This document shows, piece by piece, positions 1,766-17,183 of a stretch of 19,525 nt of DNA. The stretch comes from Nitrospirota bacterium (lineage in GTDB: Bacteria > JACPQY01). The notes under the pieces are model-generated. The model ran no database searches. It was not told the origin of the DNA and saw only the letters and a list, made by a program, of their open reading frames with translations. Every line of letters starts with the position of its first letter. The first letter of the stretch is position 1. The translations under genes were made by a program, and so were the position numbers. The DNA lies in contig JACPAV010000054.1 in the NCBI GenBank assembly GCA_016180645.1, forward strand, positions 1 to 19,525, written 5' to 3'.

Positions 1766-3220
1766 ATGTTTCGAACTCTTCGAGCGCGCCTCATTGTATC
1801 GATCCTTTTTCTTCTCCTATCCGCCTTCTTCGCCTACTCCTGGTTCACTTTCCGATGGTTGGAAGGCTCCCTCACCCGATCGCAGGAAATCCGGACCGTG
1901 CTCCTGGGCGAAACCATCAAGCGCGGCCTCATGGTGACGATGCTTCTGGGTGAAGGGAAAAACATTCAAACCATCATCGAGGCGATGGCCCAGCATGAGG
2001 AAATTGAGACCATCCGAATTTTCGATACGCAGGGGCGGATCAAGAAATCATCGAGACTCCGCGAAATCGGCGCCTTCGTTCCGTCGTCGCTCGTGGAGGC
2101 CGGCCTCCGGGACCAGCCCCAGGTTTTCCGCGACAAGGGGATAGACGGTGAACCCGTATTCACCTCGCTCCAGAGGATCGATAACCTGGCGCAATGCCAC
2201 CGGTGCCATGGGAGTGATCACAAAGTCCGCGGGATCCTGGAGCTCCAGGTCACCCTGGCGGGCGTCCTGGCCGAAGTGGATGCCCAGCGCACCCGGCTCA
2301 TCTGGACGGCGGCCGGAACATTCCTGTTCCTTTCGGTCGGCCTCTGGTTCATGCTGCTCCGGGTGGTGGCCGGTCCCGTGGAACAACTTTCCCTCGCCAT
2401 GCAAACGGCGCAAGGCGGCGACCTGTCGGTCCGGGCGCCGGAAGGCGGTCCTGAGGAGATCGCGCTGCTCGGTCGGGGGCTGAATTCCACCCTGGCCGCG
2501 CTCTCGGAAGCGCGCCGGAAATTCGAAGAGGCCCGCCACGCCGAGATGCTGCACATGGAGAGGCTTGCCTCCATCGGCGAAATGGCCTCCGGGATCGCGC
2601 ACGACATCAAGAATCCCCTCGCCGGAATCGCCGGTTCCGCCGAAGTGATCCGCGATCAACTCCCGCGCGATGACCCCCGCAAAGAAGTCCTGAATGCCAT
2701 CCTCTCCCATGTTCAGCGCCTGCATCACTCCATCGAAGGTGTCCTCTCCTACGTGCGGATCACGCCCCCCCACAGGATCGCCATCCCCTTGAAAAATCTC
2801 CTCGACAGGCTTCTCCTCCTCTGCGGTCCCGAGTTCGAAAAGAAGTCGATTGCGGTGCGTGTGGACACGCCCGATTCCCTGCCCCTTCTCCGGGTGGACA
2901 CGGAGCGGATCCAGCAGGCTCTCATGAACCTCACGATCAACGCAGTCCAGGCCATGGGCAAGGGGGGCACCCTCGACTTCTCCGCGCGCGAGATCCTCGC
3001 GGGTAGGGTCGAACTCCGCATCTCGGATACCGGCGTCGGAATCCCATCCGAGAATCTCAACAAAATTTTTGAGCCGTTCTACACCACGCGGGAAAAGGGT
3101 ACGGGACTCGGCCTCGCCACAACCCGGAGAATCATTGAAGAACACGATGGACAGATCACCGTGGAAAGCACCCCGGGTGCAGGGACCACATTCATCATTG
3201 TCCTGGAGGCGGCGCCGTGA
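1766..3220 (+). CDS. Sensor histidine kinase with a c-type heme motif in its periplasmic domain
   Basis: This is a membrane sensor kinase of 484 residues. I chose the ATG at 1766, two bases after the upstream stop and behind AGGGGG at 1749-1754, because it gives a proper first membrane segment. Domains: TM1 about 9-29; periplasmic Cache/PAS-like sensor about 30-178; TM2 about 179-199; HAMP about 200-252; HisKA with the H-box SGIAHDIKNPLAG (phospho-acceptor His279); then an HATPase_c domain with the N-box NLTINAVQAM, DTGVGIP and GTGLGLA. The unusual element is CHRCH at residues 144-148, a canonical CxxCH heme-c attachment site, just before TM2. Heme-c sensor domains are known from chemoreceptors such as DcrA of Desulfovibrio, which senses oxygen or redox state. 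A redox or ligand-binding heme role here is therefore likely but inferred. The stop overlaps the regulator start by 4 bases, so the two are a pair. Confidence 0.88.
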   Translation: MFRTLRARLIVSILFLLLSAFFAYSWFTFRWLEGSLTRSQEIRTVLLGETIKRGLMVTMLLGEGKNIQTIIEAMAQHEEIETIRIFDTQGRIKKSSRLREIGAFVPSSLVEAGLRDQPQVFRDKGIDGEPVFTSLQRIDNLAQCHRCHGSDHKVRGILELQVTLAGVLAEVDAQRTRLIWTAAGTFLFLSVGLWFMLLRVVAGPVEQLSLAMQTAQGGDLSVRAPEGGPEEIALLGRGLNSTLAALSEARRKFEEARHAEMLHMERLASIGEMASGIAHDIKNPLAGIAGSAEVIRDQLPRDDPRKEVLNAILSHVQRLHHSIEGVLSYVRITPPHRIAIPLKNLLDRLLLLCGPEFEKKSIAVRVDTPDSLPLLRVDTERIQQALMNLTINAVQAMGKGGTLDFSAREILAGRVELRISDTGVGIPSENLNKIFEPFYTTREKGTGLGLATTRRIIEEHDGQITVESTPGAGTTFIIVLEAAP

Positions 3221-4575
3221 GAATCGTCGTCATCGATGATGAACAGCTCATCCAGTGGTTCCTCAAGGAGGGACTCGCCGAGCGCGGGTACGACGTGGCC
3301 ATCGCCAAGTCCGGCGAGGAGGGGCTCGACCTGATCGAACGCGATCTTCCCGATCTGGTGATTTTGGATCTGAAACTTCCCGGCCTCTCCGGTCTCCAGG
3401 TGTTGGAACGGCTCAAGCGCGACCACCCCGATGTGGTCGTCGTGATGATCACGGCGCATGGGGACGTGAACTCCGCCGTCCAAGCCATGAAATTGGGCGC
3501 GCACGACTTCATTCCGAAGCCTTTCAAGATGGAGGAAATGGCTTTGGTATTGAACAAGGCGCTCGCCACGGCGCGCCTCCGCGCCGAAGTTACGGCTTTG
3601 CGGCGCGCCCGCCGGCCCTCCTGCTGCCCGTCCGAGCTCGTCGGGACCTCCCCGGCCATCATGGACGTGATGGCGCTGGTCGAGAAAGTTGCGCCCACCG
3701 ATGCCATCGTGCTGATCCAGGGTGAAAGCGGAACGGGAAAGGATCTCACCGCCCGGATCATCCACGACCGCAGCCCGCGTTCAACGGAGATGTTTCTGGA
3801 GGTGGACTGTACTTCGCTGCCGTCTACTCTCTTCGAGAGCGAAATTTTCGGACATGAAAAAGGGGCGTTCACGGATGCCAAGACGGCCAAGAAGGGCCTG
3901 ATTGAAACCGCCGAGCGCGGAACCGTTCTTCTGAACGAGATTGCGGACGTTCCGCTCCCCGTGCAAGCCAAGCTCCTCCGCCTGATCGAGCAGAAAGCGT
4001 TCCGTCGCCTCGGAGGCACCCGCGACATCCAAGTCGACGCGCGCCTGATCGCCTGCACCAACCGCGACCTCCAGAAAGAGGTCGCCAAGGGTGGGTTCCG
4101 CGAGGACCTCTATTACAGGCTCAAAGTGTTCCCTCTGACTCTCCCTCCGCTCCGGGAGCGCGCCAAGGACATCCCCGAACTGGTACGGTGTTTCGTTGCC
4201 GATGCGGCCTCGAGCATGAGGAAACCGCTCCCCCCAATCGGCGCGGAGGCGATGGATCTTCTCGGGGTCTACCCCTGGCCGGGGAATGTGCGCGAACTCA
4301 AGAATGTGATCGAACGCGCCATGATCCTCGCGGAAGGCGGGCCGATCCTTCCGCTCCACCTCCCAACCGAAATCGTGGAAACACAAGCCGTGCTGCCCAA
4401 CCACAAGCCACCCGTCACTCTGCCCGACCAAGGCGCTTCCCTCGGGGAAATCGAGAAGGAACTCATCGCCCAAGCATTGGCCAAGACCGGCGGCAATCAA
4501 TCGCAGGCCGCCCGGCTCCTCGGCATCAGCCGCGACACCCTCCGCTACCGCATGGAGAAACATGGCCTTGCGTGA
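3217..4575 (+). CDS. NtrC-family response regulator with non-canonical Walker B and GAFTDA motifs
   Basis: The protein has 452 residues and starts at a GTG inside the GTGA overlap with its kinase. The receiver domain (1-120) has the acidic pair D7/D8, phospho-acceptor D51 (LDLKLPG), T in MITAHGD and K in PKPF. The AAA+ domain (about 140-375) has an intact Walker A (GESGTGKD, 169-176) and the R-finger region FREDLYYRL with PPLRERAKDI. The C-terminal Fis-type helix-turn-helix is GNQSQAARLLGISRDTLRYRM. Two key motifs deviate. The sigma54-contact loop is GAFTDA (216-221, Asp220 for Gly), and Walker B reads LLNEI with Asn240 where the family has the catalytic Asp. In PspF/NtrC-type proteins that Asp is needed for ATP hydrolysis. 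This regulator may be hydrolysis-impaired, act without ATPase cycling, or work with a partner. The second regulator in the window is canonical at both places. Confidence 0.92.
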   Translation: MRIVVIDDEQLIQWFLKEGLAERGYDVAIAKSGEEGLDLIERDLPDLVILDLKLPGLSGLQVLERLKRDHPDVVVVMITAHGDVNSAVQAMKLGAHDFIPKPFKMEEMALVLNKALATARLRAEVTALRRARRPSCCPSELVGTSPAIMDVMALVEKVAPTDAIVLIQGESGTGKDLTARIIHDRSPRSTEMFLEVDCTSLPSTLFESEIFGHEKGAFTDAKTAKKGLIETAERGTVLLNEIADVPLPVQAKLLRLIEQKAFRRLGGTRDIQVDARLIACTNRDLQKEVAKGGFREDLYYRLKVFPLTLPPLRERAKDIPELVRCFVADAASSMRKPLPPIGAEAMDLLGVYPWPGNVRELKNVIERAMILAEGGPILPLHLPTEIVETQAVLPNHKPPVTLPDQGASLGEIEKELIAQALAKTGGNQSQAARLLGISRDTLRYRMEKHGLA

Positions 4576-4879: not shown

Positions 4880-4895
4880 TGGCATTGTCGTTGCG
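4880..4895 (+). promoter_or_regulatory. Sigma54 (-24/-12) promoter of the tetraheme cytochrome
   Basis: The site reads TGGCATTGTCGTTGCG, against the sigma54 consensus TGGCAC-N5-TTGCA. It has TGGCA at -24, TTGC at -12 and the exact GG-N10-GC spacing. Only the sixth and last positions differ. Transcription would start near 4906, leaving a leader of about 65 bases before the ATG at 4971. Two NtrC-class activators are encoded in the window, and a candidate enhancer inverted repeat lies upstream at 4739-4769. Confidence 0.62.
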
Positions 4896-4970: not shown

Positions 4971-5657
4971 ATGACGGCACTGAAAAACAATGTGAGACAA
5001 TCCGGAGCCTACGCCGGCCTGATTACGCTCCTTTTCGTGGTTGTCTGGACGCTGGCGACCATCTTCGCCAAGCAGGTCCTCGCGGCGGACAACGTCAGCA
5101 CGACGAAGCACAACCTGAGCGCGAACGCCGTGGCCTACGGGATCACGAACTACGGTGAAATCTGCGTGTACTGCCACACGCCCCACAACGGCAACACGAC
5201 GGCCAAGCCTCTGTGGAACAAGAACCTGCCGGCCGGACCGTTCACCATGTACAACAACGGCTGGAGCTCCACGGTCGACGAAACCGTGGACGCTTCACCG
5301 GGCGGCGTCTCCGCGGCCTGCCTCGGTTGCCATGACGGTTCGATCGGACTGGACACGATGGTAAACCGTCCGGGATCGAGCGGATGGGCGGCGCCGACGA
5401 ACGCCCTCATCGCCAACGGCGCGAGTGCGGACTACCAGCCCCGGCTGGGGACGGACATGCGGAACGACCACCCGGTCTCCATCACCTATCGCACGGTCGA
5501 TATCACCGGATTCAAGGCGGCCCCCGCCAGCGCGAAGCTTTACAGCAACAAAGTCGAGTGTGGCTCGTGTCACAACCCACACGAAGACACGAACGCTACG
5601 TTCCTGCGCATCTCCAACGCGGCCTCAGCGCTATGCCTGGATTGCCATAACAAGTAG
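4971..5657 (+). CDS. Secreted tetraheme c-type cytochrome
   Basis: The protein has 228 residues. A long N-terminal signal segment (hydrophobic core about 15-33) ends at VLAA (36-39), so the product is periplasmic or exported. Four canonical heme-binding motifs are present: CVYCH (65-69), CLGCH (117-121), CGSCH (197-201) and CLDCH (222-226), with accompanying patterns HTPHN and CHNPHEDTNATFLR of the doubled-CxxCH type. It closely matches the first four heme motifs of the large fused cytochrome ending at 12983: the N-terminal ST..HNLS segment, the HTPHN...LWN...GP.T.Y block and the DDHPVS/NDHPVS block are shared. It is monocistronic between a sigma54-type promoter and a strong terminator. Role: electron carrier, probably between inner-membrane quinol oxidation and the conduit encoded downstream (inference). 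Confidence 0.9.
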   Translation: MTALKNNVRQSGAYAGLITLLFVVVWTLATIFAKQVLAADNVSTTKHNLSANAVAYGITNYGEICVYCHTPHNGNTTAKPLWNKNLPAGPFTMYNNGWSSTVDETVDASPGGVSAACLGCHDGSIGLDTMVNRPGSSGWAAPTNALIANGASADYQPRLGTDMRNDHPVSITYRTVDITGFKAAPASAKLYSNKVECGSCHNPHEDTNATFLRISNAASALCLDCHNK

Positions 5658-5686
5658 CCTCGCCTAGCCAGGAACGAAAAAACGTC

Positions 5687-5726
5687 AAGGGCCGGGATAG
5701 CCGCTGAGGTTTTCCCGGCCCTTTTT
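5687..5726 (+). terminator. Intrinsic terminator after the tetraheme cytochrome
   Basis: A perfect 11-bp stem, AAGGGCCGGGA (5687-5697) with TCCCGGCCCTT (5713-5723), has a 15-base loop and is followed by T-rich 5722-5726. It separates the tetraheme transcript from the NHL operon, which has its own promoter candidate 40 bases further on. Confidence 0.88.
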
Positions 5727-5767
5727 CTCGAAAGGGCGGGAGGGCGACAACGGGCCATGGAACGGTC

Positions 5768-5783
5768 TGGCAGAATCAATGCC
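5768..5783 (+). promoter_or_regulatory. Sigma54 (-24/-12) promoter of the NHL/cytochrome/barrel operon
   Basis: The site reads TGGCAGAATCAATGCC: TGGCA at -24, ATGC at -12 and exact GG-N10-GC spacing. Transcription would begin near 5794, about 70 bases before the chosen ATG at 5867. This is the second good -24/-12 site in front of the cytochrome genes, which makes chance less likely for both. Confidence 0.55.
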
Positions 5784-5866
5784 CTACACCATCAAAAAAG
5801 ACTGAAATGACGACGGTCATACTTTGGACCTCGGCGGTCATGATATCAGCGAGGGGGCGGTTGGAC

Positions 5867-7006
5867 ATGGTTCTTAGGAAAGGGTTCTTCACGGCAATGG
5901 CCTTCCTCTTGGCTTCGTGCGCCGGCAATCGGGTATTGGGGCCACGACCCCTGCTTGTATGGCCCCTCCCTCCCGACCCGCCGCGCATCCGATACGTCCG
6001 CAGTCTGGCCACATCCGCCGACCTGAACGATTCCCCCACGTTCGTGGAGCGGATCAAACAGCTCCTCGTCGGCGTCAGGGCCGTTCCCGTTTTCACGAAA
6101 CCTTTCGGCGTCTGCTCCGGAAAAGGCAGGATCTTCGCCACCGACCCCTCCGAAGGGCGCGTGGTGGTCTTCGACATGGAGAAGAAGAAGCAGTACTTCC
6201 TCGGCCAGACCGGAGCCCATGCGTTGGCGCGACCCCACGGCTGCGCGGTAGGCCCCAAAGAAGAACTGTACGTCGTCGACCGCGGCTTGTTGAGGGCCAT
6301 GAGATACACACCGGAAGGCGAGTTCATGGCGGCCTATGGAGGGAATGAGATGTTTTTGAACCCTATCGATGCCGCGGTCAGCCCGGATGGAAAGCGTCTC
6401 TATGTGTCGGACAGCTACCTCCACCAGGTTCTGGTCTTTGACCCGGAAGGGAAACTTGTCCTCACGATCGGCAAGCAGGGGAAGGAGCCCGAACCCGTTC
6501 CCCCAGGGGCACATGGGAGCGATCGCTATTGGAACCGGGGATCGGGAGAAGGAGAGTTCAACTTTCCAACCTACCTAGCGCTCGACAAGAACGGCCTCCT
6601 CTACGTTGTCGATGCCATGAATTTCAGGATCCAGATCTTCGACTCTTCGGGCGCATACGTGAGATCGATCGGAAGCCTCGGCAGGGGATTTGGCAATTTC
6701 GCCAGGCCGAAAGGGATCGCAGTGGACGCCGACGGCAACCTCTACGTGGCGGACGGGGCATTCAACAACGTTCAGATCTTCAATGCCGAGGGGCAGCTCC
6801 TGATGTTTTTCGGCGCGGTCGGCCACGATCCCGGCCAATTCTGGCTGCCGCAAGGCGTGGCCGTAGAGGGAGACCGAATCTTGGTCGTGGACCAATACAA
6901 CCATCGCCTCCAAGTCTTCGAACTCGTGGCCGCCGACGCCGGCGCGAAACCTGTGGATGCTCCCGCGAACGGGACCTCGACAGCATCGAAAGACGGCCCG
7001 CCGTGA
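5867..7006 (+). CDS. NHL-repeat beta-propeller lipoprotein
   Basis: The protein has 379 residues. I chose the ATG at 5867, preceded by GAGGGGG, over the ATG at 5807, because it directly yields a lipoprotein signal: basic RK, hydrophobic GFFTAMAFLL, then lipobox LASC with the lipidated Cys18. The rest is a six-bladed-type NHL propeller with repeats such as LYVSDSYLHQVLVFDPEGK, LYVVDAMNFRIQIFD, LYVADGAFNNVQIF and ILVVDQYNHRLQVFE. There are no CxxCH motifs. It is homologous along its length to the N-terminal 450 residues of the fused cytochrome ending at 12983 (VWPxPPDxPRI opening, NFRIQ, FWLPxG). It likely acts as a scaffold or surface docking protein in the conduit; no catalytic site is apparent. 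It overlaps the next gene by 4 bases. Confidence 0.88.
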   Translation: MVLRKGFFTAMAFLLASCAGNRVLGPRPLLVWPLPPDPPRIRYVRSLATSADLNDSPTFVERIKQLLVGVRAVPVFTKPFGVCSGKGRIFATDPSEGRVVVFDMEKKKQYFLGQTGAHALARPHGCAVGPKEELYVVDRGLLRAMRYTPEGEFMAAYGGNEMFLNPIDAAVSPDGKRLYVSDSYLHQVLVFDPEGKLVLTIGKQGKEPEPVPPGAHGSDRYWNRGSGEGEFNFPTYLALDKNGLLYVVDAMNFRIQIFDSSGAYVRSIGSLGRGFGNFARPKGIAVDADGNLYVADGAFNNVQIFNAEGQLLMFFGAVGHDPGQFWLPQGVAVEGDRILVVDQYNHRLQVFELVAADAGAKPVDAPANGTSTASKDGPP

Positions 7007-7617
7007 AACGAGTCATCCTTTTCTCAGCTCTCCTGCCGCTCATCCTGGGCGCGGTCTGGGCCTGCTCGCCAAAGGCGCGATGGAAAGTCCTGAATACGCT
7101 CTTCGACGCCGTCCCACCCCCCGAAGAGAAAGCCGATAAATCGAAAACACCGGCGCCTCCAAAGGCGGCATCGCGCGCGACGCTCGAAAACCAGAGCCGC
7201 ACTCCGCCCAAGGTCCCCGGCATCCCGGCCGAGAAACTCTCCGACTGGAAACAGGTGGAAGAACTTCTGCCGAAGGACGATTCAGGCGGCGTGGATTGGG
7301 TGGCCGCGCTCCGCGAGGGGATCATCGAGCCGTGGGCGGGGCTGACGGAAGACGCGCCCCCGAAAAGGGACTTCGGTTTCGACTTCATCTACAAGGCCGA
7401 AAGCAAGGATGACGACGCGGTCTTTTTTCACAGTTCCCATGCCGAATGGCTCGCGTGCAACAACTGCCATCCCGCCGTCTTCGAAGGGTTCGATTTCTCT
7501 CGCGGCGAGCTGAACATGGATGCCGTCGATGAAGGCAAGTATTGCGGCCGCTGCCACGGCACGGTGGCCTTTCCGCGAGGCGACGAAAACTGCACCCGAT
7601 GTCATCCCAACCAATAG
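7003..7617 (+). CDS. Triheme cytochrome, probable lipoprotein, c7-like C-terminal domain
   Basis: The protein has 204 residues and a GTG start inside the GTGA overlap with the propeller gene. The N-terminus is a signal segment ending in AVWAC, with Cys21 a possible lipidation site; Trp at that lipobox position is unusual, so cleavage type is uncertain. A Pro/Lys/Glu-rich linker covers about 35-75. The C-terminal domain has three heme motifs, CNNCH (152-156), CGRCH (181-185) and CTRCH (197-201), plus distal-type histidines in FFHSSHAEW. This layout fits the cytochrome c7 / triheme family, where CxxCH motifs and preceding His residues give bis-His hemes. It sits between a propeller lipoprotein and another triheme cytochrome, so a periplasmic-side wire is likely. 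Confidence 0.87.
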   Translation: MKRVILFSALLPLILGAVWACSPKARWKVLNTLFDAVPPPEEKADKSKTPAPPKAASRATLENQSRTPPKVPGIPAEKLSDWKQVEELLPKDDSGGVDWVAALREGIIEPWAGLTEDAPPKRDFGFDFIYKAESKDDDAVFFHSSHAEWLACNNCHPAVFEGFDFSRGELNMDAVDEGKYCGRCHGTVAFPRGDENCTRCHPNQ

Positions 7618-7624
7618 GCTCGGC

Positions 7625-8062
7625 ATGAGGACACGTCTCGTCGTCATGGCGCTGCTGACAGGCTTGGCAACGGCGGCGGTTCGCTTCCCGGATTCCGCGG
7701 GCTCGGAGGAGCCGACTCAGCCCCCATCGTCGGAGAAGCCGTCCCTCCCGTCCATCGGAACGGAGTACGACCCTGTGTACGGCGACATCGTGTTCAAACG
7801 TCTGACGGGCGAAATCGGCACCGTCCCTCCCGCGGTCTTCAGTCACTGGGTCCACCGAATGCGATTCCGATGCTACGTCTGCCACGATTCGATTTTCAAA
7901 ATGAAAAAGGGCGCCAACAAGGTGGTGAAGGACGACATCAGGAAAGGAAAGTTCTGCGGAGTCTGCCACACCGGAAAGCTGGCCTGGCAGATCACCGATG
8001 AGAACTGCCACCGGTGCCACAAGGGGCCGGTCCCGAAACCGGTGGCGGAGAAGACACCGTGA
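7625..8062 (+). CDS. Periplasmic triheme cytochrome of the c7/c3 type
   Basis: The protein has 145 residues and starts at the ATG at 7625, 7 bases after the previous stop; the open frame continues upstream but only inside the previous gene. The signal peptide is MRTRLVVMALLTGLATA. The heme domain has the pattern FSHWVHRMRFRC with distal histidines, then CYVCH (83-87), CGVCH (111-115) and CHRCH (128-132). This spacing is typical of cytochrome c7 and related triheme proteins, which are small soluble periplasmic electron shuttles. It resembles the C-terminal half of the preceding gene product, so the pair may derive from duplication. Its stop overlaps the barrel gene by 4 bases, pointing to co-production with the outer-membrane component. 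Confidence 0.88.
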   Translation: MRTRLVVMALLTGLATAAVRFPDSAGSEEPTQPPSSEKPSLPSIGTEYDPVYGDIVFKRLTGEIGTVPPAVFSHWVHRMRFRCYVCHDSIFKMKKGANKVVKDDIRKGKFCGVCHTGKLAWQITDENCHRCHKGPVPKPVAEKTP

Positions 8063-9969
8063 CGCGATTCTTCATCGCCCTCCTCGGGGTAGGGGGCGTC
8101 CTCCTCCCCACCACCGCTCTCGCGCAGGAATGGCTCCAAGTCTCGCCCCTCCAAGGCGGGATCCAGGGGCAGACGCGCGCCGGCTGGGGGTACCAGTCGG
8201 AATCGGGCGATTCGCAAGATTTGTATTGGGCCACGAGGGTGTTGATCCGGAACCGGGTCTCTCTCCTCGATCCGGGCCTGCTGTCGCTCGGCGTCGCCGG
8301 GAGCATCGGATTTTTTCAGGACCGGCTCCAGTCGCAGAACACCGCCAGCCGGAGCAACTCGATGCCCGTCGAATACGACCTGGGTGTCTCGGCCCTCGAC
8401 AAGAGCAAGTTTCCAACGCATCTGCATGCGGCCCGATCGCAACGGGTCACCCGCCTGGACCTTGGAGGGCTTTCACGAAACGATTCGGAAAACGCCGAGG
8501 GTTCCATTCGGTGGAGGAACGGGGTCCTGGAACCCTCCCTCAACTTCAACCGGACGCAGTCGCGCGAAACGGTTCGGCAAGGCGTTACGGGCGCCACCAG
8601 CGAAAGAGAAGATAGGTCCATACGGGGAGGGGGAAGCCTGAGCCGAGCCGGGCCCACCACCCAACTCAACGCCGACTACGGCATTCTGAACCTGGAGGAC
8701 CTCGTCGATCCCGCTCGAGACTACAACGCCCAAGACGCCTCATTCCACCACAAGGCCGGCGTCTCACGGCGGTTCTCGACCTCGGTCAATTTTCACAGGC
8801 GCGGCCCCTTCCTTGCGCAACAACAGTTTCGCGCCGCCGAAGACGTGAGCCTCGACCACACGCCGACTCTATCCTCACAACACGGCTATTCCTTCGCCCG
8901 TTCAGACTCCCAGGATCTTTTCACGGCCACCCATGCCGCAAAAACAGGGATCAGCCACCAACTGTTCGGCAGTCTCAACGAACGGCTTGACCTCGCCGGC
9001 ACACGGCGTGACTTCACGAGCGGGCGCGAGACCGAGGGCGGCCCGAACGGCCGCCTGGGCTACAGGAAAAAGGCCGGACCGGGAGACATCCTGGCCGGAG
9101 TCGGCGGCGGGTACAACCTCGCCTCCCGGAAGGCGGACGCCGCCCCACTCAGGTCCGTCAACGAGACACATGCGCTCGAAGACGGCCTCCCCGTTCTTCT
9201 CGAACAGAGAGACGCAGATGCCGAATCGGTCGTCGTGACGGACGCCGAACGCGAACTCCTCTACCAGAGAGGATTCGACTACGACCTCACGACCCGGGAA
9301 GGGTACGTCGAACTCGTCCGCCTCCCCGGAGGCCGAATCCGGGACAATCAGGAAGTCTGGGTCAGCTACACCCACAGCGTCCCCGGCTCCGCCGTGTATG
9401 ACCGTCGCTCCGTCGGATACGATCTCGGGTACGACCTCCACTGGCTGCGCCTCTTCTACCAACAGAACCGGCTCCGCTTGCACCCCCTGAAAGGCGGCAT
9501 TCAGAGTTCATCGACCCTGTCCGACAATGTGGGAGTGGAAGGCCGATTCGGCGGCAGCCCGCTCCTGTTCTCACCCCTTGCGGAAAGGCGCTCCCTTCGG
9601 CAAGACACCATATCCTACGTTACGTACATCGTCCGACAGCCTCTGGCCTGGGAGGCGACCTCCCGCATGAAGCTCCAGCTTACCTTCGAAGAGTTATTCT
9701 TCAGTATGCCGGGCAATGGGGATTTCCAGACGTACTCCGCCGAGCTGTCCGGAACGGCGGACTTCAGCGTATGGACGGTTCGACCGGGTACCCGCTACTG
9801 GCTGCGGTATCTCGACGGTTCGGAGAAGCTGTGGACCTCCTTCATCGATTTTTCCGGCAGGATCGGAAAGCTGGAAAGCTCCCTCGGCCTCGATTACAAC
9901 AGGTGGAACGTGCGCGGATCGGCGCGGCAAGAATTCCGAACGGACTTCTCGGTCACGCGATGGTTCTGA
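8059..9969 (+). CDS. Large cysteine-free outer-membrane beta-barrel protein, candidate conduit porin
   Basis: The protein has 636 residues and a GTG start in the GTGA overlap at 8059. The signal peptide runs to PTTALA, with QEW after it. The mature protein contains no cysteine and alternates short amphipathic strands throughout, ending in FSVTRWF with a terminal Phe as barrel assembly signals require. Around residues 375-450 a non-barrel insert (VVVTDAERELLYQRGFDYDL ... LPGGRIRDNQEVWVSYTH) resembles a small beta-sandwich seen in other such outer-membrane proteins. I cannot assign it to MtrB or OmbB by motif. In porin-cytochrome conduits a barrel of this size encloses a multiheme cytochrome. 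The neighbours on both sides are multiheme cytochromes, so the same job is inferred. The final TGA shares one base with the next ATG (TGATG at 9967-9971). Confidence 0.8.
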   Translation: MTRFFIALLGVGGVLLPTTALAQEWLQVSPLQGGIQGQTRAGWGYQSESGDSQDLYWATRVLIRNRVSLLDPGLLSLGVAGSIGFFQDRLQSQNTASRSNSMPVEYDLGVSALDKSKFPTHLHAARSQRVTRLDLGGLSRNDSENAEGSIRWRNGVLEPSLNFNRTQSRETVRQGVTGATSEREDRSIRGGGSLSRAGPTTQLNADYGILNLEDLVDPARDYNAQDASFHHKAGVSRRFSTSVNFHRRGPFLAQQQFRAAEDVSLDHTPTLSSQHGYSFARSDSQDLFTATHAAKTGISHQLFGSLNERLDLAGTRRDFTSGRETEGGPNGRLGYRKKAGPGDILAGVGGGYNLASRKADAAPLRSVNETHALEDGLPVLLEQRDADAESVVVTDAERELLYQRGFDYDLTTREGYVELVRLPGGRIRDNQEVWVSYTHSVPGSAVYDRRSVGYDLGYDLHWLRLFYQQNRLRLHPLKGGIQSSSTLSDNVGVEGRFGGSPLLFSPLAERRSLRQDTISYVTYIVRQPLAWEATSRMKLQLTFEELFFSMPGNGDFQTYSAELSGTADFSVWTVRPGTRYWLRYLDGSEKLWTSFIDFSGRIGKLESSLGLDYNRWNVRGSARQEFRTDFSVTRWF

Positions 9970-12900
9970 TGAAAGCCATCAGGGGTCGGCTTCCTACCAG
10001 GAACTCTCGCATCCCGGTAGCCGCAGGCTTTATGCCTGCGCCCAAGACGCGGGCTAAAGCCCGCGCCTACCAGGGTGGAAGTAAACGGGCGAGGGGGAAA
10101 CGCATCGTCCTCACGTCTTTTCTCACAGGACTGATCCTCGCCGCCTGCGCCCTCCTCGGCCGCAACCGGCCCGCGCCGATGCCGTTCAGGGTGTGGCCGG
10201 GCCCGCCGGACTCTCCCCGGATTGAACTCGTGATGAGCTTCAGCTCGCCGGACGATCTCGGCTTTCCCCGCGGGTTCTGGAGCCGCGTAGCGCAGATCCT
10301 CTTCGGCTCCGGCCCCCCCAGAATGCTCCGGCCCTACGCCATCGCCGTCCGCGGCCAGACCGTTGCCATTACAGACACCAAGTTGGGCGCCGTCCACCTG
10401 TATCGTTTCGACAAGAAAGACTACCGCCAGATCGGGCGGGGCTCCGGAGGTCTCATCTCCCCGGTAGGCCTGGCCATCGACCGACAGGGACGCGTATGGG
10501 TCTCCGACTCCGTGCTGGCAGAGGTGCGCATTTACAGGCCGGACGGCAAGCTGGAGAAAAAAATCCATCCTTTCAATCGGCCGACCGGCCTCACCTATGA
10601 TGAGGAACACGGCGCCATCTGGGTGGCGGACGTTGCACGGCACAGCCTGGTGAAGCTGGACGAAAACGGAGAGTTCCTGGGGCAGGTTGGCGAACGCGGA
10701 GGACAGCCCGTTCCGGCCGAAACCTATTCCATATCCACGCGGTTTGAACTCCTGCCCGAATCCTCACCCCGGCCCTCCTCCTCCCAGGGAAAGGTAGCCC
10801 CGATCCCCAACGGTATGAAGGCGCAGAGTGAAGGCTTGCATTTCAACTTCCCCGCCCATCTTTCCTATCGGTCCGGCCGTCTCTTCGTAACGGACACACT
10901 CAACTTCCGGATCCAAGTGCTTGACACGGAGGGACACCCCGTCAGCCGGTTCGGCCGCCATGGCAACGGGTCCGGCGACTTCGCCATGCCCAAGGGCGTG
11001 GGCGTGGACAGCGAGGGCCATGTCTACGTGGTCGACTCCATGTTCGGAGCGTTCCAGATATTTGACGCGCAGGGGAACCTCCTTCTCGGCGTGGGGGCCA
11101 CCGGCCAGGCCCCCGGCGACTTCTGGCTGCCTTCCGGCTTGTTCGCGGACGAACAGGACCGCATTTGGGTTGCGGACAGTTTCAACCAGCGTGTGCAGGT
11201 CTTTCAGTACCTGCGCGAAGGCCGCGCGCCGAGAGGGCCCGTCTCGTCCCGCGCGCAATACGATTGGCTCTTCGGGATTCGCGAAGCCTTCGCCGTACCC
11301 AACATCTCCACCACCCTTCACAACCTCTCCACGTCGGGAACAAGCACGTTCAAAAGCGGGACGATCAACGAGGTCTGCGTGTTCTGCCACACGCCGCACA
11401 ACTCCCAACAGAAGCGCCCGCTGTGGAACCGGTCGGACCCGGGCGGACCCTATACGCTCTACTCCTCCTCGACTCTCAACGCCACTTTGGGCCAGCCGTC
11501 GGGCTCATCCAAGAATTGCTTCTCCTGCCACGACGGCACGATCGCACTGGGGTCCTTGACCAACTCGCCAACCGGCCAGGTGAACGACCTCACCGCAAGC
11601 TTCCTCAGCGGACGGGCCCTGCTGGGTACGGGCCTCACGGACGACCATCCCGTCTCGTTCACATACGACGCCGCGCTCGCCGCCGCCGATCCCGAACTCA
11701 AAGACCCCGCCACGCTCACCGGCGTCATCCTCGAAAACAACCAAGTTCAATGCGCCAGTTGCCACGAACCCCACGACAACACGAACGCCCCCTTCCTCCG
11801 CGTCTCCACCAATAACGGCGATCTCTGCACTCGCTGCCACGTGAAGGTGGATTGGAGCACGTCCAGCCATTCCACGTCCGCCGCCATCTGGAACGGTCTC
11901 GGCACCGACCCGTGGGCCGAACGGAAAGCGGCGTGGAGGCAGACGACGGTGTCCGGAAACTCGTGCATGAACTGTCACGATCCCCACAACGCGGCCAACC
12001 CGACGCGCCTCCTCAAGCAGGCGGGCGACGAGGAAAACACCTGCTACCCCTGCCACAACGCCAACGTGGCCGTGAAAAACGTCCAGGGCGATTTCGGAAA
12101 GACCTATCGGCACCCCGTCGCCACGTACTCGGGCGTACACAACCCCACCGAGGACCCTCTCACGATGGCCACCCACGTCGAATGCACGGACTGCCACAAC
12201 CCTCACGTCGTCAGCAATGCCTCCTCGTTCGCCGCCTCCCCCTACGGGGCCCCGCTCGGCGTCGGAAGCCGCCTCCAGAAAATCAAGGGCGTGGACACGA
12301 ACGGCGCCAACGTCAATCCCTCAACCTACCTCTATGAAGTCTGTTACAAGTGCCACGGACTCTCGAACGCCCACACGTCCAATTTTACGAACGTCGTTCG
12401 CCGGGATGCCACCTACAATCTCCGCCTGAAGTTCGACACGGCGAATCCCTCCTTTCATCCGGTCGAGGCCGTGGGGAAAAACGCCAATGTCCCGTCCCTC
12501 CTCGCCCCCTATACGACGGGTAGCATCATCTCCTGCATCGACTGCCACAACAGCGACGCCTCCCCGTGGGTCGGCGGCGCCGGAGCGAACGGCCCCCACG
12601 GCTCAACGTGGGGTCCCGGCTTATTCATCCAGAACTACAAGATGATCGACGACGTCTCAAATGTGTGGCCCGACTTCGACATGTGCCTCCGATGCCACAG
12701 CCAGGCCAGCCTCAACGCGGGTACCAGCACCCCCAAACACGGGCACATCCTGGGCTGCCAGAAGGCCCCCTGCATGAACTGCCACGATCCGCACGGCTCC
12801 ACCGTGTCCAATCACCTCATCAATTTCCTCAAGGTCGACCGGTTCGGAAATGTGGTCGTCCAGAAGGGCACCCTCGCCGGTTGCGACCCCTACCCAGAGC

Positions 12901-12983
12901 CCACATTCGTGGATTTGGGAACATACACGGGGCAATGCTACCTCAAATGCCACGGCACCAACCACTGCTCCAAATCGTACTGA
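9969..12983 (+). CDS. Fused NHL-propeller / dodecaheme-type cytochrome lipoprotein
   Basis: The protein has 1004 residues counting from the ATG at 9969, which shares a base with the upstream stop. Residues 46-60 form a lipoprotein signal (IVLTSFLTGLILAAC, Cys60). An NHL propeller covers about 70-425 (NFRIQVLD, VYVVDSMFGAFQIFD, IWVADSFNQRVQVF). The C-terminal half has eleven CxxCH motifs starting at residues 470, 517, 595, 620, 666, 692, 739, 792, 856, 906 and 935, and a twelfth, CYLKCH at 990-995, with three spacer residues. The first four motifs match the tetraheme protein at 4971-5657. The signal peptide has an extra 44-residue head because a hairpin repeat lies at 10018-10070; the ATG at 10032 inside the repeat is an alternative start. 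Expected place: outer-membrane surface or periplasmic face, as terminal electron-transfer partner of the barrel (inference). Confidence 0.9.
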   Translation: MKAIRGRLPTRNSRIPVAAGFMPAPKTRAKARAYQGGSKRARGKRIVLTSFLTGLILAACALLGRNRPAPMPFRVWPGPPDSPRIELVMSFSSPDDLGFPRGFWSRVAQILFGSGPPRMLRPYAIAVRGQTVAITDTKLGAVHLYRFDKKDYRQIGRGSGGLISPVGLAIDRQGRVWVSDSVLAEVRIYRPDGKLEKKIHPFNRPTGLTYDEEHGAIWVADVARHSLVKLDENGEFLGQVGERGGQPVPAETYSISTRFELLPESSPRPSSSQGKVAPIPNGMKAQSEGLHFNFPAHLSYRSGRLFVTDTLNFRIQVLDTEGHPVSRFGRHGNGSGDFAMPKGVGVDSEGHVYVVDSMFGAFQIFDAQGNLLLGVGATGQAPGDFWLPSGLFADEQDRIWVADSFNQRVQVFQYLREGRAPRGPVSSRAQYDWLFGIREAFAVPNISTTLHNLSTSGTSTFKSGTINEVCVFCHTPHNSQQKRPLWNRSDPGGPYTLYSSSTLNATLGQPSGSSKNCFSCHDGTIALGSLTNSPTGQVNDLTASFLSGRALLGTGLTDDHPVSFTYDAALAAADPELKDPATLTGVILENNQVQCASCHEPHDNTNAPFLRVSTNNGDLCTRCHVKVDWSTSSHSTSAAIWNGLGTDPWAERKAAWRQTTVSGNSCMNCHDPHNAANPTRLLKQAGDEENTCYPCHNANVAVKNVQGDFGKTYRHPVATYSGVHNPTEDPLTMATHVECTDCHNPHVVSNASSFAASPYGAPLGVGSRLQKIKGVDTNGANVNPSTYLYEVCYKCHGLSNAHTSNFTNVVRRDATYNLRLKFDTANPSFHPVEAVGKNANVPSLLAPYTTGSIISCIDCHNSDASPWVGGAGANGPHGSTWGPGLFIQNYKMIDDVSNVWPDFDMCLRCHSQASLNAGTSTPKHGHILGCQKAPCMNCHDPHGSTVSNHLINFLKVDRFGNVVVQKGTLAGCDPYPEPTFVDLGTYTGQCYLKCHGTNHCSKSY
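10018..10070 (+). repeat. Double-hairpin REP-like repeat within the cytochrome N-terminus
   Basis: Two tandem perfect 7-bp hairpins are present: CGCAGGC-tttat-GCCTGCG (10022-10040) and CGCGGGC-taaa-GCCCGCG (10048-10065), framed by GTAG on the left and CTAC on the right. The 9-mer CCTACCAGG occurs at 9993-10001 and again at 10066-10074, like a direct repeat around the element. It is read through in frame as VAAGFMPAPKTRAKARAYQG. Such double hairpins are dispersed repeats in many environmental genomes. Here it lies between the coupled start codon and the signal peptide core. Confidence 0.78.
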
Positions 12984-13381: not shown

Positions 13382-14809
13382 ATGACTCCTAACGCATGGT
13401 TCGCCACTCTATTGCTCGCCGCGTCGGGGACCGACAAGACGTCGATGATCCAGGCCGGCTGCCCGCCGATCAGCGAGTCCCTCGTCGAGACGGTTCTGAC
13501 CGCAAAGGGCTCGTCACCTGAGGGAGTACAATCCGCGGCCCGACATGCCCTTGACTCGCTCGCACGGCACACCACCGACCAAGCCCGCGACCAATGCGCA
13601 AAATGGGGAAAACGGTTCAATCGCCATTCCGACGAACAAAAGCTGGCCGAGATCGAGCGCATCGTGGCGGGAGAAGGTGACGCGCCGTCCGAATGCCTGG
13701 CGGCGCTGCTCGCCGCGGACCTTCCCCCGCCCCTCGCGACTCTGGCCAGAGCCGCCGCCTCCTACAAAGGTGAACCAACGGCCATACTCTCGTTTCCCCA
13801 AGACATGGAGGACGACTCTTTCCGCGCCGCTCTCATCCACTTCATGAGCCGGGGGATGACGCCGTCCCCGGCCTTTGCGTGGGTGGCTCTCCGGTCGAAC
13901 GATACGGAAGTCCAGACCGCCCTCGCGCCCCTCCTGGTCCGAATCAACGAACCCTCCCTCATCGAGCCGCTCCTCGAATCCATGTCGGACCCGGACCTTC
14001 GTGTGGGGGCGCGCGAGGCTCTTATGCGCTGGGCGAAAGACCCGCGCTATACGGCCTCTCTTGTGCGTACTCTCGAACACCCCCAACACCGGAAATGGAC
14101 CCTCGAAATCCTCTGGCAAACACACGAAACCGCCGTCGCCCACGAACTGGAGAAGGCACTCACACACCCGTCGGCGGGTGTCCGCGCGGATGTCGCCGGC
14201 GTCCTCGGGAATGTAGGCGACCCGCACTCCATCCTACCCTTGGTCCATGCCCTGAAAGACGCCGATCCGCTCGTGCGTCGAAATGCGACGATCTCTCTCG
14301 GGAACCTCAAATACCTTCAAGCCGTGCCGTACATCGTGGAGGCCCTGAAAGACGCCGACCCCCGCGTCCGATTCGATGCGGCGTGGTCCCTGGCCCGCAT
14401 CTTGCGCGAGCGGGACGGCAAACCCGTCACGCCAGACCCAAACGTGGTGGAGGCCCTTCGCCAAGCATTGACCGATGACGACTCCGAAGTTCGCCGCGCT
14501 GGAGCCGGAGCCTTCATGCTCCTGAAAGTGCCCGCGGTCGTGCAGGATCTAAGGGCGCTCCTGAAGGATGCCGTCGCCGAAGTTCGCATAGATGCGGTGG
14601 TGGCCATTGCGGAAATCCACTCAGCGGAGGCTACGGAGGCCATGCTGAGCGCCCTCGGCAGCAAGGACGAGGGGCTGCGGCTGCGCACAGTCAAACTCCT
14701 CGCCTTCCGTCTTGACAAAACCGTACGGGCCAGGCTCGCGGCCCTCAGCCGGTCCGACCCCTCTCCCCTCGTCCGCCGGGCCGCGGCTGAGGCCATCCAA
14801 CAACCATGA
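13382..14809 (+). CDS. HEAT-repeat protein
   Basis: The protein has up to 475 residues. From about residue 195 to the end there are about eight HEAT/PBS-lyase-type helical pairs of about 31 residues, for example LVHALKDADPLVRRNATISL, IVEALKDADPRVRFDAAWSL and LRQALTDDDSEVRRAGAGAF. The first two share an identical 17-base stretch 93 bases apart, suggesting recent repeat duplication. The N-terminal 190 residues are helical and unassigned. No convincing signal peptide is present. The ATG at 13382 lies in a repeat-like fragment and lacks a ribosome-binding site; the ATG at 13445 is a reasonable alternative. HEAT proteins are protein-protein scaffolds. Its stop overlaps the diguanylate cyclase gene by 4 bases (ATGA), so a scaffold role in this signalling operon is likely but inferred. 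Confidence 0.82.
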   Translation: MTPNAWFATLLLAASGTDKTSMIQAGCPPISESLVETVLTAKGSSPEGVQSAARHALDSLARHTTDQARDQCAKWGKRFNRHSDEQKLAEIERIVAGEGDAPSECLAALLAADLPPPLATLARAAASYKGEPTAILSFPQDMEDDSFRAALIHFMSRGMTPSPAFAWVALRSNDTEVQTALAPLLVRINEPSLIEPLLESMSDPDLRVGAREALMRWAKDPRYTASLVRTLEHPQHRKWTLEILWQTHETAVAHELEKALTHPSAGVRADVAGVLGNVGDPHSILPLVHALKDADPLVRRNATISLGNLKYLQAVPYIVEALKDADPRVRFDAAWSLARILRERDGKPVTPDPNVVEALRQALTDDDSEVRRAGAGAFMLLKVPAVVQDLRALLKDAVAEVRIDAVVAIAEIHSAEATEAMLSALGSKDEGLRLRTVKLLAFRLDKTVRARLAALSRSDPSPLVRRAAAEAIQQP

Positions 14810-15642
14810 GGGGAAGACGCCGCATGCCTCGATCCAGGTCGCCGATCCGCCTTGCCTTGACGGGCGCCGCCTTGGGTCTTGGCGCACCCGCCGGCTGGCT
14901 TGCGCTCCGCTATCTCAGCAGGTCGTCGCAGGGTCACGGCGTAAACGGATGGCTGCTCCAAGAGATCGCGGATTCCAGCATGCTCTATGCCTACCTTGCC
15001 GTTTCCACTGTGACCGTTTTTGCCGTGTACGGCTGGCGCCTGGGCAGTATGGTCCAGAAACTGAAACGACAGACGCATGAGAAAATGAAGCTGCATCGGC
15101 TCTCGATCACGGACTCCTTGACCGGCCTCTACAATCGGGGATTTTTTGACCGGTGCGTTGAGGATGAACTGGCCCGCGCCCGAAGGCTCTACTACCCTCT
15201 ATCCCTGCTGCTCCTGGACATGGACGATCTGAAGGCCATCAATGACCGATACGGCCATCCGGTCGGAGACGAGGTCCTCGCCAAGATCGGTTTTGCCATC
15301 GACCAGGCGCTTCGTGAAACCGATCTCGCCTTCCGGTACGGCGGAGATGAATTCGTCGTCCTGCTGCCTAACTGCGATGAAGGAGACCTCGCGGAGGTCG
15401 AGCAACGTCTCCTCGCTTTGATCGATGAGCATGCTCAGCCGGCCGTTCCCCTTCCGAGGCGTGTCAGTGTCTCGGTCGGCCGCACCACCTTCCATCCCGG
15501 AAAAGATTCCTCCGGCACGGAGATGGTCAGACAAGCCGACCGGGAATTATACGGGCAGAAAAAAACGAAGAAGCCGGCGGTGCGCCTCGCATCACACACC
15601 GCCCGCACATCGGCTGCGGACTCCATGGGGGGCGCGCCATGA
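14806..15642 (+). CDS. Membrane-bound diguanylate cyclase (GGDEF)
   Basis: The protein has 278 residues and starts in the ATGA overlap. Two membrane segments (about 14-36 and 54-76) flank a short periplasmic loop. A linker helix and the GGDEF domain (about 98-260) follow, with DSLTGLYNR, LLLDMDDLKAINDRYGH and an intact active site GGDEF at 179-183. The allosteric I-site RETD (170-173) lies five residues before it, so product inhibition by cyclic di-GMP is expected. It makes cyclic di-GMP from two GTP. There is no EAL domain and no sizeable sensor domain, so input must come through the membrane or partner proteins such as the HEAT protein encoded upstream. It overlaps the kinase gene by 4 bases. 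Confidence 0.93.
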   Translation: MRGRRRMPRSRSPIRLALTGAALGLGAPAGWLALRYLSRSSQGHGVNGWLLQEIADSSMLYAYLAVSTVTVFAVYGWRLGSMVQKLKRQTHEKMKLHRLSITDSLTGLYNRGFFDRCVEDELARARRLYYPLSLLLLDMDDLKAINDRYGHPVGDEVLAKIGFAIDQALRETDLAFRYGGDEFVVLLPNCDEGDLAEVEQRLLALIDEHAQPAVPLPRRVSVSVGRTTFHPGKDSSGTEMVRQADRELYGQKKTKKPAVRLASHTARTSAADSMGGAP

Positions 15643-17183
15643 ACCAGAGCCGATGGCGAATTCTCGATCTGGTCGCCCTCTGGGGGCTCACGATTCTGGT
15701 GATTTTCGGGGGATACGAACTGGCCGAGCGCTTTTGGCTGGGTGCCCTGGAACCGGGCCTCATCCGCCGGTTGCACATCGCGCGTGGCATCGGCGCATCG
15801 GCGCTGACCGCCATCCTCGTCGGGATCTACCTGGCCCGGAGGCAGCCGCCCTCCATGATTCTGGGCGGTGGAGCCGCGTACCTCCCGAAGCCGGAGATCG
15901 AACTGGTCCGCGACCAAGCCGCGTGGTTCGTCCGGATGCGGTGGTTCGCAGCCGGTCTGGCCGCCCTGGGTTGCGTCATCGCCACCCGGCTGATCAGCCT
16001 CCTCCCTGCGGAGAATCTTGTGCCTCTGCTGACCTGCGTTCTGGGTCTCATGGCGGCCAACGCAATCTTCACGTTCCGGGTCTCCAGGACGGACAAACCA
16101 TACCGGCTCATCGTCATCCAGGCCGCGGTGGACCTGCTGATCCTCACCTATCTTCTGCACTTCTCCGGCGGAATTGAGAATCCCTTCTACCTCGTCTACC
16201 TCCCTCACGTTATCATCGCGGGGATCATTCTGTCCCGTCGCGATGCGTTCTTTGTCACCCTTCTCACCTGCCTCCTGTTCCTCAGCTTGGCTGTTCTGGA
16301 ATACACGGATGTGTGGCATCATTCGTTCATCGGACTTTCGCCCCACGGGAACGACCACGATGAGCACGGCGCCTCCAGACTGGTTTTCGTCGTCGGCGAA
16401 TCCATCCCCTTCCTGCTGGTCACGCTGTTCACGGCCTATTTCACCATCCTTCTCCGCGACCAGATTCATCGGGACCAGGCGAACGTTCTTCAAGCGAGCA
16501 AGTTGGCCACGATCGGCGAGCTGGCGGGCCGCTTAGCCCATGAAGTCAACAACCCCATCGGCATCATCAGCACCAACGCGAAGCTCCTCCTGGAAAACAA
16601 GTCACTGCCCAAGGACGCCGTGCCCCTTATCGAGAAAATCGATCGCCACAGCGAACGAATCGCCGCCCTTACACGGGGCTTGCTTTCCTTCAGCAGGCCT
16701 TCGCCGGGTCAACGGACCTCCGTGGATCTCAATCGAATCGTCCGCGATTCCCTCCGCCTCGTCGAACCGGAAGCCGCAGGGGCCGGAATTCGCATCGAGA
16801 AAAAATTGGCGGATCCGTTGCCTCCCATCCATGCCAACGGCAACGACCTCCAGCACGTGATTCTCAATCTGGCCAGCAACGCGGTGGCCGCGATGCCGAG
16901 AGGGGGAACGTTGCGACTCGAAACCGGGCATGACGGGAACGGATGGGTATCGTTGGCGCTTGCAGATACGGGGACCGGTATTCCTGCCCGCATCGTCGAC
17001 CATATCTTCGATCCCTTCTTCACGACGAAACCGGAGGACAAGGGCACGGGCCTGGGTCTTTCGATCGTGCAGGGAATCGTCCGAAGCCACGGCGGGATCA
17101 TCGACGTGTGGACGCGGGAAGGGAAAGGCACCACCTTCACCGTCCGGCTGCCTATCTTGAAGAATGAAAGGGGGAGCGCATGA
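15639..17183 (+). CDS. Histidine kinase with RegB/PrrB-like quinone-site membrane domain
   Basis: The protein has 514 residues and starts in the ATGA overlap. Two N-terminal membrane segments (about 7-27 and 46-66) are followed by a six-segment membrane region (about 100-275). It contains GGIENPF at 177-183, which fits the GGxxNPF heptapeptide known as the ubiquinone-binding site of the redox sensors RegB and PrrB. A His-rich loop (HGNDHDEHG) lies before the last membrane segment. The kinase core has the H-box GRLAHEVNNPIGI (His301), N-box NLASNAVAAM, DTGTGIP and GTGLGLS. The H-box is of NtrB type rather than RegB type, so it looks like a RegB-style sensor joined to an NtrB-style kinase. The paired regulator is NtrC-class. 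Sensing of the quinone pool is inferred from the motif. Confidence 0.9.
   Translation: MNQSRWRILDLVALWGLTILVIFGGYELAERFWLGALEPGLIRRLHIARGIGASALTAILVGIYLARRQPPSMILGGGAAYLPKPEIELVRDQAAWFVRMRWFAAGLAALGCVIATRLISLLPAENLVPLLTCVLGLMAANAIFTFRVSRTDKPYRLIVIQAAVDLLILTYLLHFSGGIENPFYLVYLPHVIIAGIILSRRDAFFVTLLTCLLFLSLAVLEYTDVWHHSFIGLSPHGNDHDEHGASRLVFVVGESIPFLLVTLFTAYFTILLRDQIHRDQANVLQASKLATIGELAGRLAHEVNNPIGIISTNAKLLLENKSLPKDAVPLIEKIDRHSERIAALTRGLLSFSRPSPGQRTSVDLNRIVRDSLRLVEPEAAGAGIRIEKKLADPLPPIHANGNDLQHVILNLASNAVAAMPRGGTLRLETGHDGNGWVSLALADTGTGIPARIVDHIFDPFFTTKPEDKGTGLGLSIVQGIVRSHGGIIDVWTREGKGTTFTVRLPILKNERGSA

Follow-up and report, generated by a model that had tools for sequence, protein, structure and literature searches.

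A Uet-like gene block with a fused NHL propeller–cytochrome and OmcE-like modules in a Nitrospirota contig

How a cytochrome nanowire is electrically connected to its cell is poorly understood, as has been stated for Geobacter (PMC10553843). The question is raised anew by a block of genes at positions 4971–12983 of a 19,525-nucleotide stretch of DNA from a Nitrospirota bacterium (JACPQY01; assembly GCA_016180645.1, contig JACPAV010000054.1). This stretch – the window – is one whole 19.5-kilobase contig of a 65-contig draft genome. The block encodes a tetraheme cytochrome, NHL propellers, two triheme cytochromes, a large outer-membrane barrel and a cytochrome with twelve heme sites. We consider it fairly probable that it represents an outer-membrane electron conduit of the undecaheme electron transfer (Uet) type, working with a filament of OmcE-type cytochromes. 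Such blocks, present in at least 14 phyla, combine a barrel, a subunit of OmcE type and a large cytochrome that begins with an OmcE-like module, and they offer a concrete model of the base of a wire. What is new in the window is the fusion of a propeller to the large cytochrome; also worth keeping are the OmcE-like module within that cytochrome, its twelfth heme site and the wide spread of the block among phyla.

Parts of the block and their Uet counterparts

All genes of the block lie on the plus strand and, as read from the sequence, comprise a tetraheme gene followed by a compact run of five (5867–12983), each gene having family or profile support:

4971–5657, plus strand: secreted tetraheme cytochrome, OmcE homologue, UetA-like (phmmer and motifs)
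5867–7006, plus strand: NHL beta-propeller lipoprotein, the first propeller, UetH/I-like (Pfam NHL, E 1.4e-31; lipobox LASC)
7003–7617, plus strand: triheme c7-type cytochrome with an N-terminal signal, probable lipoprotein (NCBIfam TIGR04257, E 1.8e-15)
7625–8062, plus strand: periplasmic triheme c7-type cytochrome (NCBIfam TIGR04257, E 1e-19)
8059–9969, plus strand: outer-membrane beta-barrel, UetC-like (AlphaFold2 model, Foldseek and profile homologues)
9969–12983, plus strand: fused lipoprotein with an NHL propeller, an OmcE-like tetraheme module and eight further heme sites (Pfam NHL and Paired_CXXCH)

An original prediction, made from the letters of the window, had listed these same parts – tetraheme cytochrome, NHL lipoprotein, two trihemes, cysteine-free 636-residue barrel and fused cytochrome – and motifs and families bear out every one of them, as they do the spacing of the last five genes, with overlaps of 4, 4 and 1 bases and one 7-base gap. 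Its ‘12-motif’ cytochrome indeed carries twelve motifs, more precisely 11 CXXCH and one CX3CH. The suggestion that this was a conduit of new, unnamed composition does not hold, as the parts list equals that of uetABCDEFGHIJ. The prediction also missed the OmcE homology of both the tetraheme protein and the first module of the large cytochrome, and did not single out the propeller–cytochrome fusion as the unusual feature.

The Uet cluster, a known kind of electron-transfer system that has been little studied, is described for Candidatus Tenderia electrophaga and Tenderiales and for Gallionella (PMC10734462, PMC12575090). It is there composed of the tetraheme UetA, the isomerase UetB, the barrel UetC, the trihemes UetD, UetE and UetG, the NHL proteins UetH and UetI, and the undecaheme UetJ. 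In Tenderia, three triheme genes are among the most highly expressed on the cathode. Counterparts of UetJ, UetA, UetC and UetH/I are all found in the window, one NHL unit being separate and the other fused, whereas Tenderia has three trihemes and the window two TIGR04257 proteins. The other difference is the fusion itself, of the second NHL protein with the undecaheme, in a lineage that is sparsely sampled. No peptidylprolyl isomerase (UetB, an accessory part) was found by Pfam among the ten proteins of the window, though one could lie elsewhere in the genome, and no tetratricopeptide repeat gene was found in the window in the comparison with Tenderia-type Uet. Some gammaproteobacteria also carry this block (Candidatus Thiodiazotropha, L144 and L125; also L099 and L160); their loci share the two-triheme version with the window, and those placed in the cytochrome tree group with it. 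It is by its parts, its gene order and its occurrence in gammaproteobacteria that the block is assigned to the Uet type.

The first NHL lipoprotein has 379 residues, and an NHL gene occupies the same position in most relatives. The triheme protein that follows it has 204 residues, with a clear lipobox in 9 of 12 same-position homologues; its neighbour has 145 residues, a Sec signal and no lipobox. A TIGR04257 match is misleading by itself, most TIGR04257 loci being unrelated triheme or multi-domain cytochromes. Both window trihemes (7003–8062) show only two clear distal histidines per three hemes, and the third heme ligand of each may be a methionine or be supplied by a partner.

The tetraheme protein has 228 residues, a Sec signal, CXXCH motifs at residues 65, 117, 197 and 222, and exactly four histidines beyond these sites (47, 72, 167 and 204). 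It matches OmcE of PDB entry 7tfs (phmmer, E 5e-30) and entry 9yuq (E 5e-25), and these comparisons identify it as homologous to the nanowire subunit of Geobacter, with conserved heme ligands. Its gene stands outside the five-gene run, and a strong hairpin with a T-run (5687–5727) comes after it.

The fused propeller–cytochrome

The last protein of the block, 1004 residues long, has a lipobox (LAAC) with its cysteine at residue 60, followed by a propeller (about 60–425), an OmcE-like module (about 445–626) and eight more heme sites up to residue 1004. The motifs are not a product of chance: when the cytochrome half was shuffled, none of 2000 trials reached even three CXXCH motifs. The CX3CH motif, near the C-terminus at residue 990, is invariant across 55 aligned cytochrome sequences, so that the ‘undecaheme’ family probably binds twelve hemes, and counting CXXCH motifs alone probably misses one of them. 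To the undecahemes of 54 loci the cytochrome half is about 40–48% identical, and alignments over 560 residues to undecahemes give 43–48%.

The likeness to OmcE is found at several levels. The module matches 7tfs with an E-value of 9e-34 in sequence and 6e-45 by profile, and in an AlphaFold model of the cytochrome half (predicted local distance difference test, pLDDT, 80.7), OmcE is the only significant Foldseek match (E 6e-8). The modelled module aligns to OmcE with a Z-score of 10.3 and a root-mean-square deviation of 3.1 over 170 of 202 OmcE residues; parts of it have low pLDDT, as expected for a model built without hemes. Sequence and model comparisons agree that the first module of the large cytochrome is an OmcE homologue. 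The OmcE nanowire of Geobacter sulfurreducens (7tfs) thus has two homologues in the window, the tetraheme protein and residues 445–626 of the fused protein, the likeness including four CXXCH motifs and four further histidines. In contrast to the nanowire, one of the two OmcE-like copies is built into a larger anchored cytochrome.

In every relative checked the NHL gene and the undecaheme gene are separate, among them the culturable Desulforhopalus sp. IMCC35007 (L164), whereas the window has both in one lipoprotein. Could an assembly error or a frameshift have joined two ordinary neighbours? The window is a single contig of a draft genome and the best relatives are just 48% identical, so that no close copy confirms the join; the one other genome of the organism’s family that was searched lacks the cytochrome and likewise provides none. 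The frame, however, is open over 1004 codons without a stop. In 77 relatives the cytochrome gene has its own start, with a hydrophobic, signal-peptide-like stretch before the OmcE-like module in nearly all; at the window’s junction there is a short linker, with no signal-peptide sequence in any of the three frames. Since a frameshift would have left the signal peptide behind, a frameshift is ruled out as the explanation and an artefact of any kind is very improbable: the fusion is real. It was seen in no other locus among the best 80 of 578 confirmed places, though rare cases may exist. A second suspected fusion, in genome G262, resolved on reading of the locus into separate NHL and cytochrome genes.

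The fused protein keeps its lipobox, which places propeller and cytochrome at the same membrane face in this species, and the fusion indicates that the two act as one unit there. As gene fusions are commonly interpreted, contact between the two is very likely also where they are separate proteins. Because a single gene supplies both propeller and cytochrome, it is a useful expression target.

Conservation of the block and the case for a conduit

Loci were scanned with the cytochrome alone, yielding the best 80 of 578 confirmed places; as the search took no account of adjacent genes, synteny is independent evidence. The 80 named loci come from at least 14 phyla – Bacteroidota, Ignavibacteriota, Chlorobiota, Calditrichota, KSB1, Verrucomicrobiota, Planctomycetota, Nitrospirota, Nitrospinota, Pseudomonadota, Thermodesulfobacteriota, Myxococcota, Acidobacteriota, Sumerlaeota and others – and most carry the same block. 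An NHL gene lies directly 5′ of the cytochrome in 74 of the 76 loci with more than 800 base pairs (bp) upstream, the remaining two being the window itself and one locus without NHL. Among undecaheme loci with more than 5 kilobases upstream, the barrel is on the same strand in 54 of 58. Barrel, multiheme cytochromes and NHL propellers thus form a conserved unit, as the original prediction had supposed, and the block has proved to be kept together across phyla.

The usual order is tetraheme, NHL, small multiheme or multihemes, barrel, NHL and undecaheme; in Bacteroidota-type loci, the final NHL–undecaheme pair is shifted to the front. The twelve-heme cytochrome is the most conserved part of the block. 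Two trihemes are present in 12 loci, window included, and these, or the 5-heme or 9–13-heme cytochromes that substitute for them in relatives, stay directly 5′ of the barrel. In the cytochrome tree, the window groups with proteobacterial sequences in a clade (support 100/97) and is placed beside a Desulfuromonadales one; where the flanking sequence of clade members is long enough to tell (L099, L125, L147 and L160), they carry the version with two trihemes and a barrel. The barrel is present in many genomes of the class to which that Desulfuromonadales genome belongs, and a core block of NHL, 5-heme, barrel, NHL and 11–12-heme occurs in all 18 loci of that class examined. In Desulfuromonadia (L205–L212 and L195–L204), a cytochrome with 15 heme sites usually precedes the block, which is often followed by a very long cytochrome (about 900–1200 residues) with some seven heme sites.

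For the barrel protein, free of cysteine and 636 residues long, an AlphaFold2 model built from 61 aligned sequences shows a very large barrel, with about 28–30 strands by a count of those listed (mean pLDDT 91.8). Profile searches find full-length homologues beside the cytochrome in relatives. Searches of Pfam, NCBIfam and the PDB returned no porin family, nor any other match that would explain the sequence; a well-known porin without ties to electron transfer would have spoken against the original prediction, and what was found is a barrel of no ordinary porin family whose model is MtrB-sized. The comparison with MtrB that had been proposed came out in part: among Foldseek matches MtrB (6r2q_B, E 3.3e-8) is fourth by E-value, with the highest template modelling score among the best-ranked, and in structural alignment it comes first by Z-score (15.7 over 412 residues), with siderophore receptors and pilus ushers tied with it. 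The model thus predicts an MtrB-sized barrel, its membership of the MtrB family being unproven. A central segment (mature residues about 346–418) matches the phage tail-tube family NF052337 weakly (E 1.3e-4 for the window), a similarity present in 21 of the 61 aligned barrels (best E 8e-10); a phage origin of the segment was rejected, and the similarity is read as a shared beta-domain.

The structural neighbours suggest other uses for such a barrel. TonB-dependent receptors score near MtrB, as they might if it were a substrate porin or an uptake channel for a metal or cofactor, with the cytochromes serving as a surface reductase of a soluble metal or organic compound. None of the 61 barrels, however, matches a TonB plug or receptor family, and the close association of barrel and cytochrome genes across many phyla also makes this reading improbable.

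A secretory role deserves more weight. Barrel, propellers and small trihemes would then be a machine for assembling and secreting the tetraheme filament and the large cytochrome, with the filament receiving its electrons in some other way. Precedents come from Geobacter, where OscE, OscF and OscG of the osc operon are proposed to secrete OmcS nanowires and OscH to fold OmcS (PMC13194489), and GSU2500–2493 is termed a nanowire secretion cluster (PMC12977616). The osc (OmcS companion) operon resembles the block in kind, by description: it is nanowire-linked, it has cytochromes (OscI and OscJ), and a beta-propeller gene, GSU3586, is listed between GSU2476 and GSU2504. It differs in that OmcS is a hexaheme protein with no sequence relation to OmcE, and in that the window has no prolyl isomerase gene. 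That pilus ushers are tied with MtrB among the barrel’s neighbours, and that the gene of the putative filament subunit adjoins the block, would also suit secretion. Trihemes or their substitutes kept directly before the barrel are nevertheless hard to fit to a plain secretion pore, and the most conserved part is the twelve-heme cytochrome itself. We consider secretion as the explanation unlikely, though conduit and secretion roles may both be true together.

Among the known systems nearest to the block are also MtrCAB (PDB 6r2q) and the Geobacter porin-cytochrome conduits (OmbB–OmaB–OmcB), with a large cysteine-free barrel neighboured by periplasmic and surface multiheme cytochromes; in the window, a lipoprotein with 12 heme sites is encoded adjacent to the barrel, probably facing the cell surface. 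Several points weigh against a conduit. The barrel has no sequence link to MtrB in a PDB sequence search; in structure, MtrB is tied with unrelated large barrels; the block holds no decaheme, MtrA-like protein to fill the barrel, which would leave the wire to be made by the pair of small trihemes or by a portion of the twelve-heme protein; and homology to Tenderia Uet is judged by parts and order rather than by alignment. The window also differs from these conduits in its extra propeller proteins, a feature shared, by description, with the outer-membrane multiheme clusters of Desulfovibrio ferrophilus (DFE_0448–0465), which also have NHL propeller genes.

A possible electron path and the surroundings of the block

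If the block is a Uet-type conduit, electrons would pass between inner-membrane quinone chemistry and the periplasmic triheme cytochrome, then to the second, lipid-anchored triheme, and would cross the outer membrane inside the large barrel. Beyond it would lie the surface lipoprotein with NHL propeller and twelve-heme cytochrome in one chain, the propellers acting as collars that keep the cytochromes against the barrel. The OmcE-like module, with the first four hemes, would serve as a fixed first unit on which the secreted tetraheme subunits (4971–5657) stack as a wire. In OmcE filaments, one heme receives its second histidine from the adjacent subunit (PMC9473688, PMC12954529), which would make an anchored OmcE-like module a natural first unit of a tetraheme wire. 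That the fused protein is the physical joint of conduit and nanowire is a tentative idea that we rate as somewhat unlikely: its lipid-anchored propeller would carry, at the C-terminal end, the OmcE-like module as first filament unit, and from there electrons would pass to the eight further hemes and by way of these to the barrel; were it true, the same joint would exist, as two separate proteins, in the many phyla with the block.

Elsewhere in the genome, one locus (L042, C3:324770–330368) holds genes for a cytochrome b and for c554-like, five-heme and triheme cytochromes, and this cytochrome b complex is a possible inner-membrane partner. The only other family genome examined (L043) has a triheme and a five-heme gene similarly arranged, with the conduit absent. 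The genome also contains two heme-copper oxidase genes, while a search for the RuBisCO large subunit found none; together with the cytochrome b complex, these do not decide the direction of electron flow.

Several further elements flank or interrupt the block:

1766–3220, plus strand: sensor histidine kinase, probably regulating the block, whose sensor part bears a CXXCH (Pfam HATPase_c, HisKA and HAMP)
3217–4575, plus strand: NtrC-type sigma-54 response regulator that pairs with the kinase (sequence; 4-base overlap with the kinase gene)
4880–4894, plus strand: candidate −24/−12 (sigma-54) promoter, TGGCATTGTCGTTGC (exact pattern match, 76 bp 5′ of the tetraheme start codon)
5687–5727, plus strand: hairpin with a T-run, likely terminator between the tetraheme gene and the candidate conduit operon (folding)
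10016–10075, plus strand: palindromic interspersed repeat, in frame in the signal-peptide n-region of the fused protein (genome matches and folding)

The kinase has its CXXCH heme-binding motif at residue 144, inside a sensor domain with weak similarity to Mcp40H-20 (Pfam, E 9e-6, just under the cut-off). Together with the NtrC-type regulator, it is consistent with redox control of a sigma-54 promoter. With one mismatch allowed, the sigma-54 pattern occurs at 2 sites in the window against 1.8 expected, so that support for the promoter comes mainly from its location. A sigma-70 promoter scan gave nothing useful, and the terminator scan accompanying it overlooked the 5687–5727 hairpin, with its longer, interrupted stem and loop; this hairpin folds at −29.3 kcal/mol (z −4.8), a value matched by none of 200 shuffles. 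For the 60-bp repeat the folding energy is −40.9 kcal/mol (z −5.1), and an in-frame ATG within it, at 10032, may be an alternative start codon. It has 55 matches in its own genome, a recurrence that ties the contig to its genome bin.

Ahead of the regulators (180–1763) lie two genes, one porin-like and one short and PstS-like, while the 3′ side of the block (13382–18595) encodes a HEAT-repeat protein, a GGDEF protein and a second pair of kinase and NtrC-type regulator.

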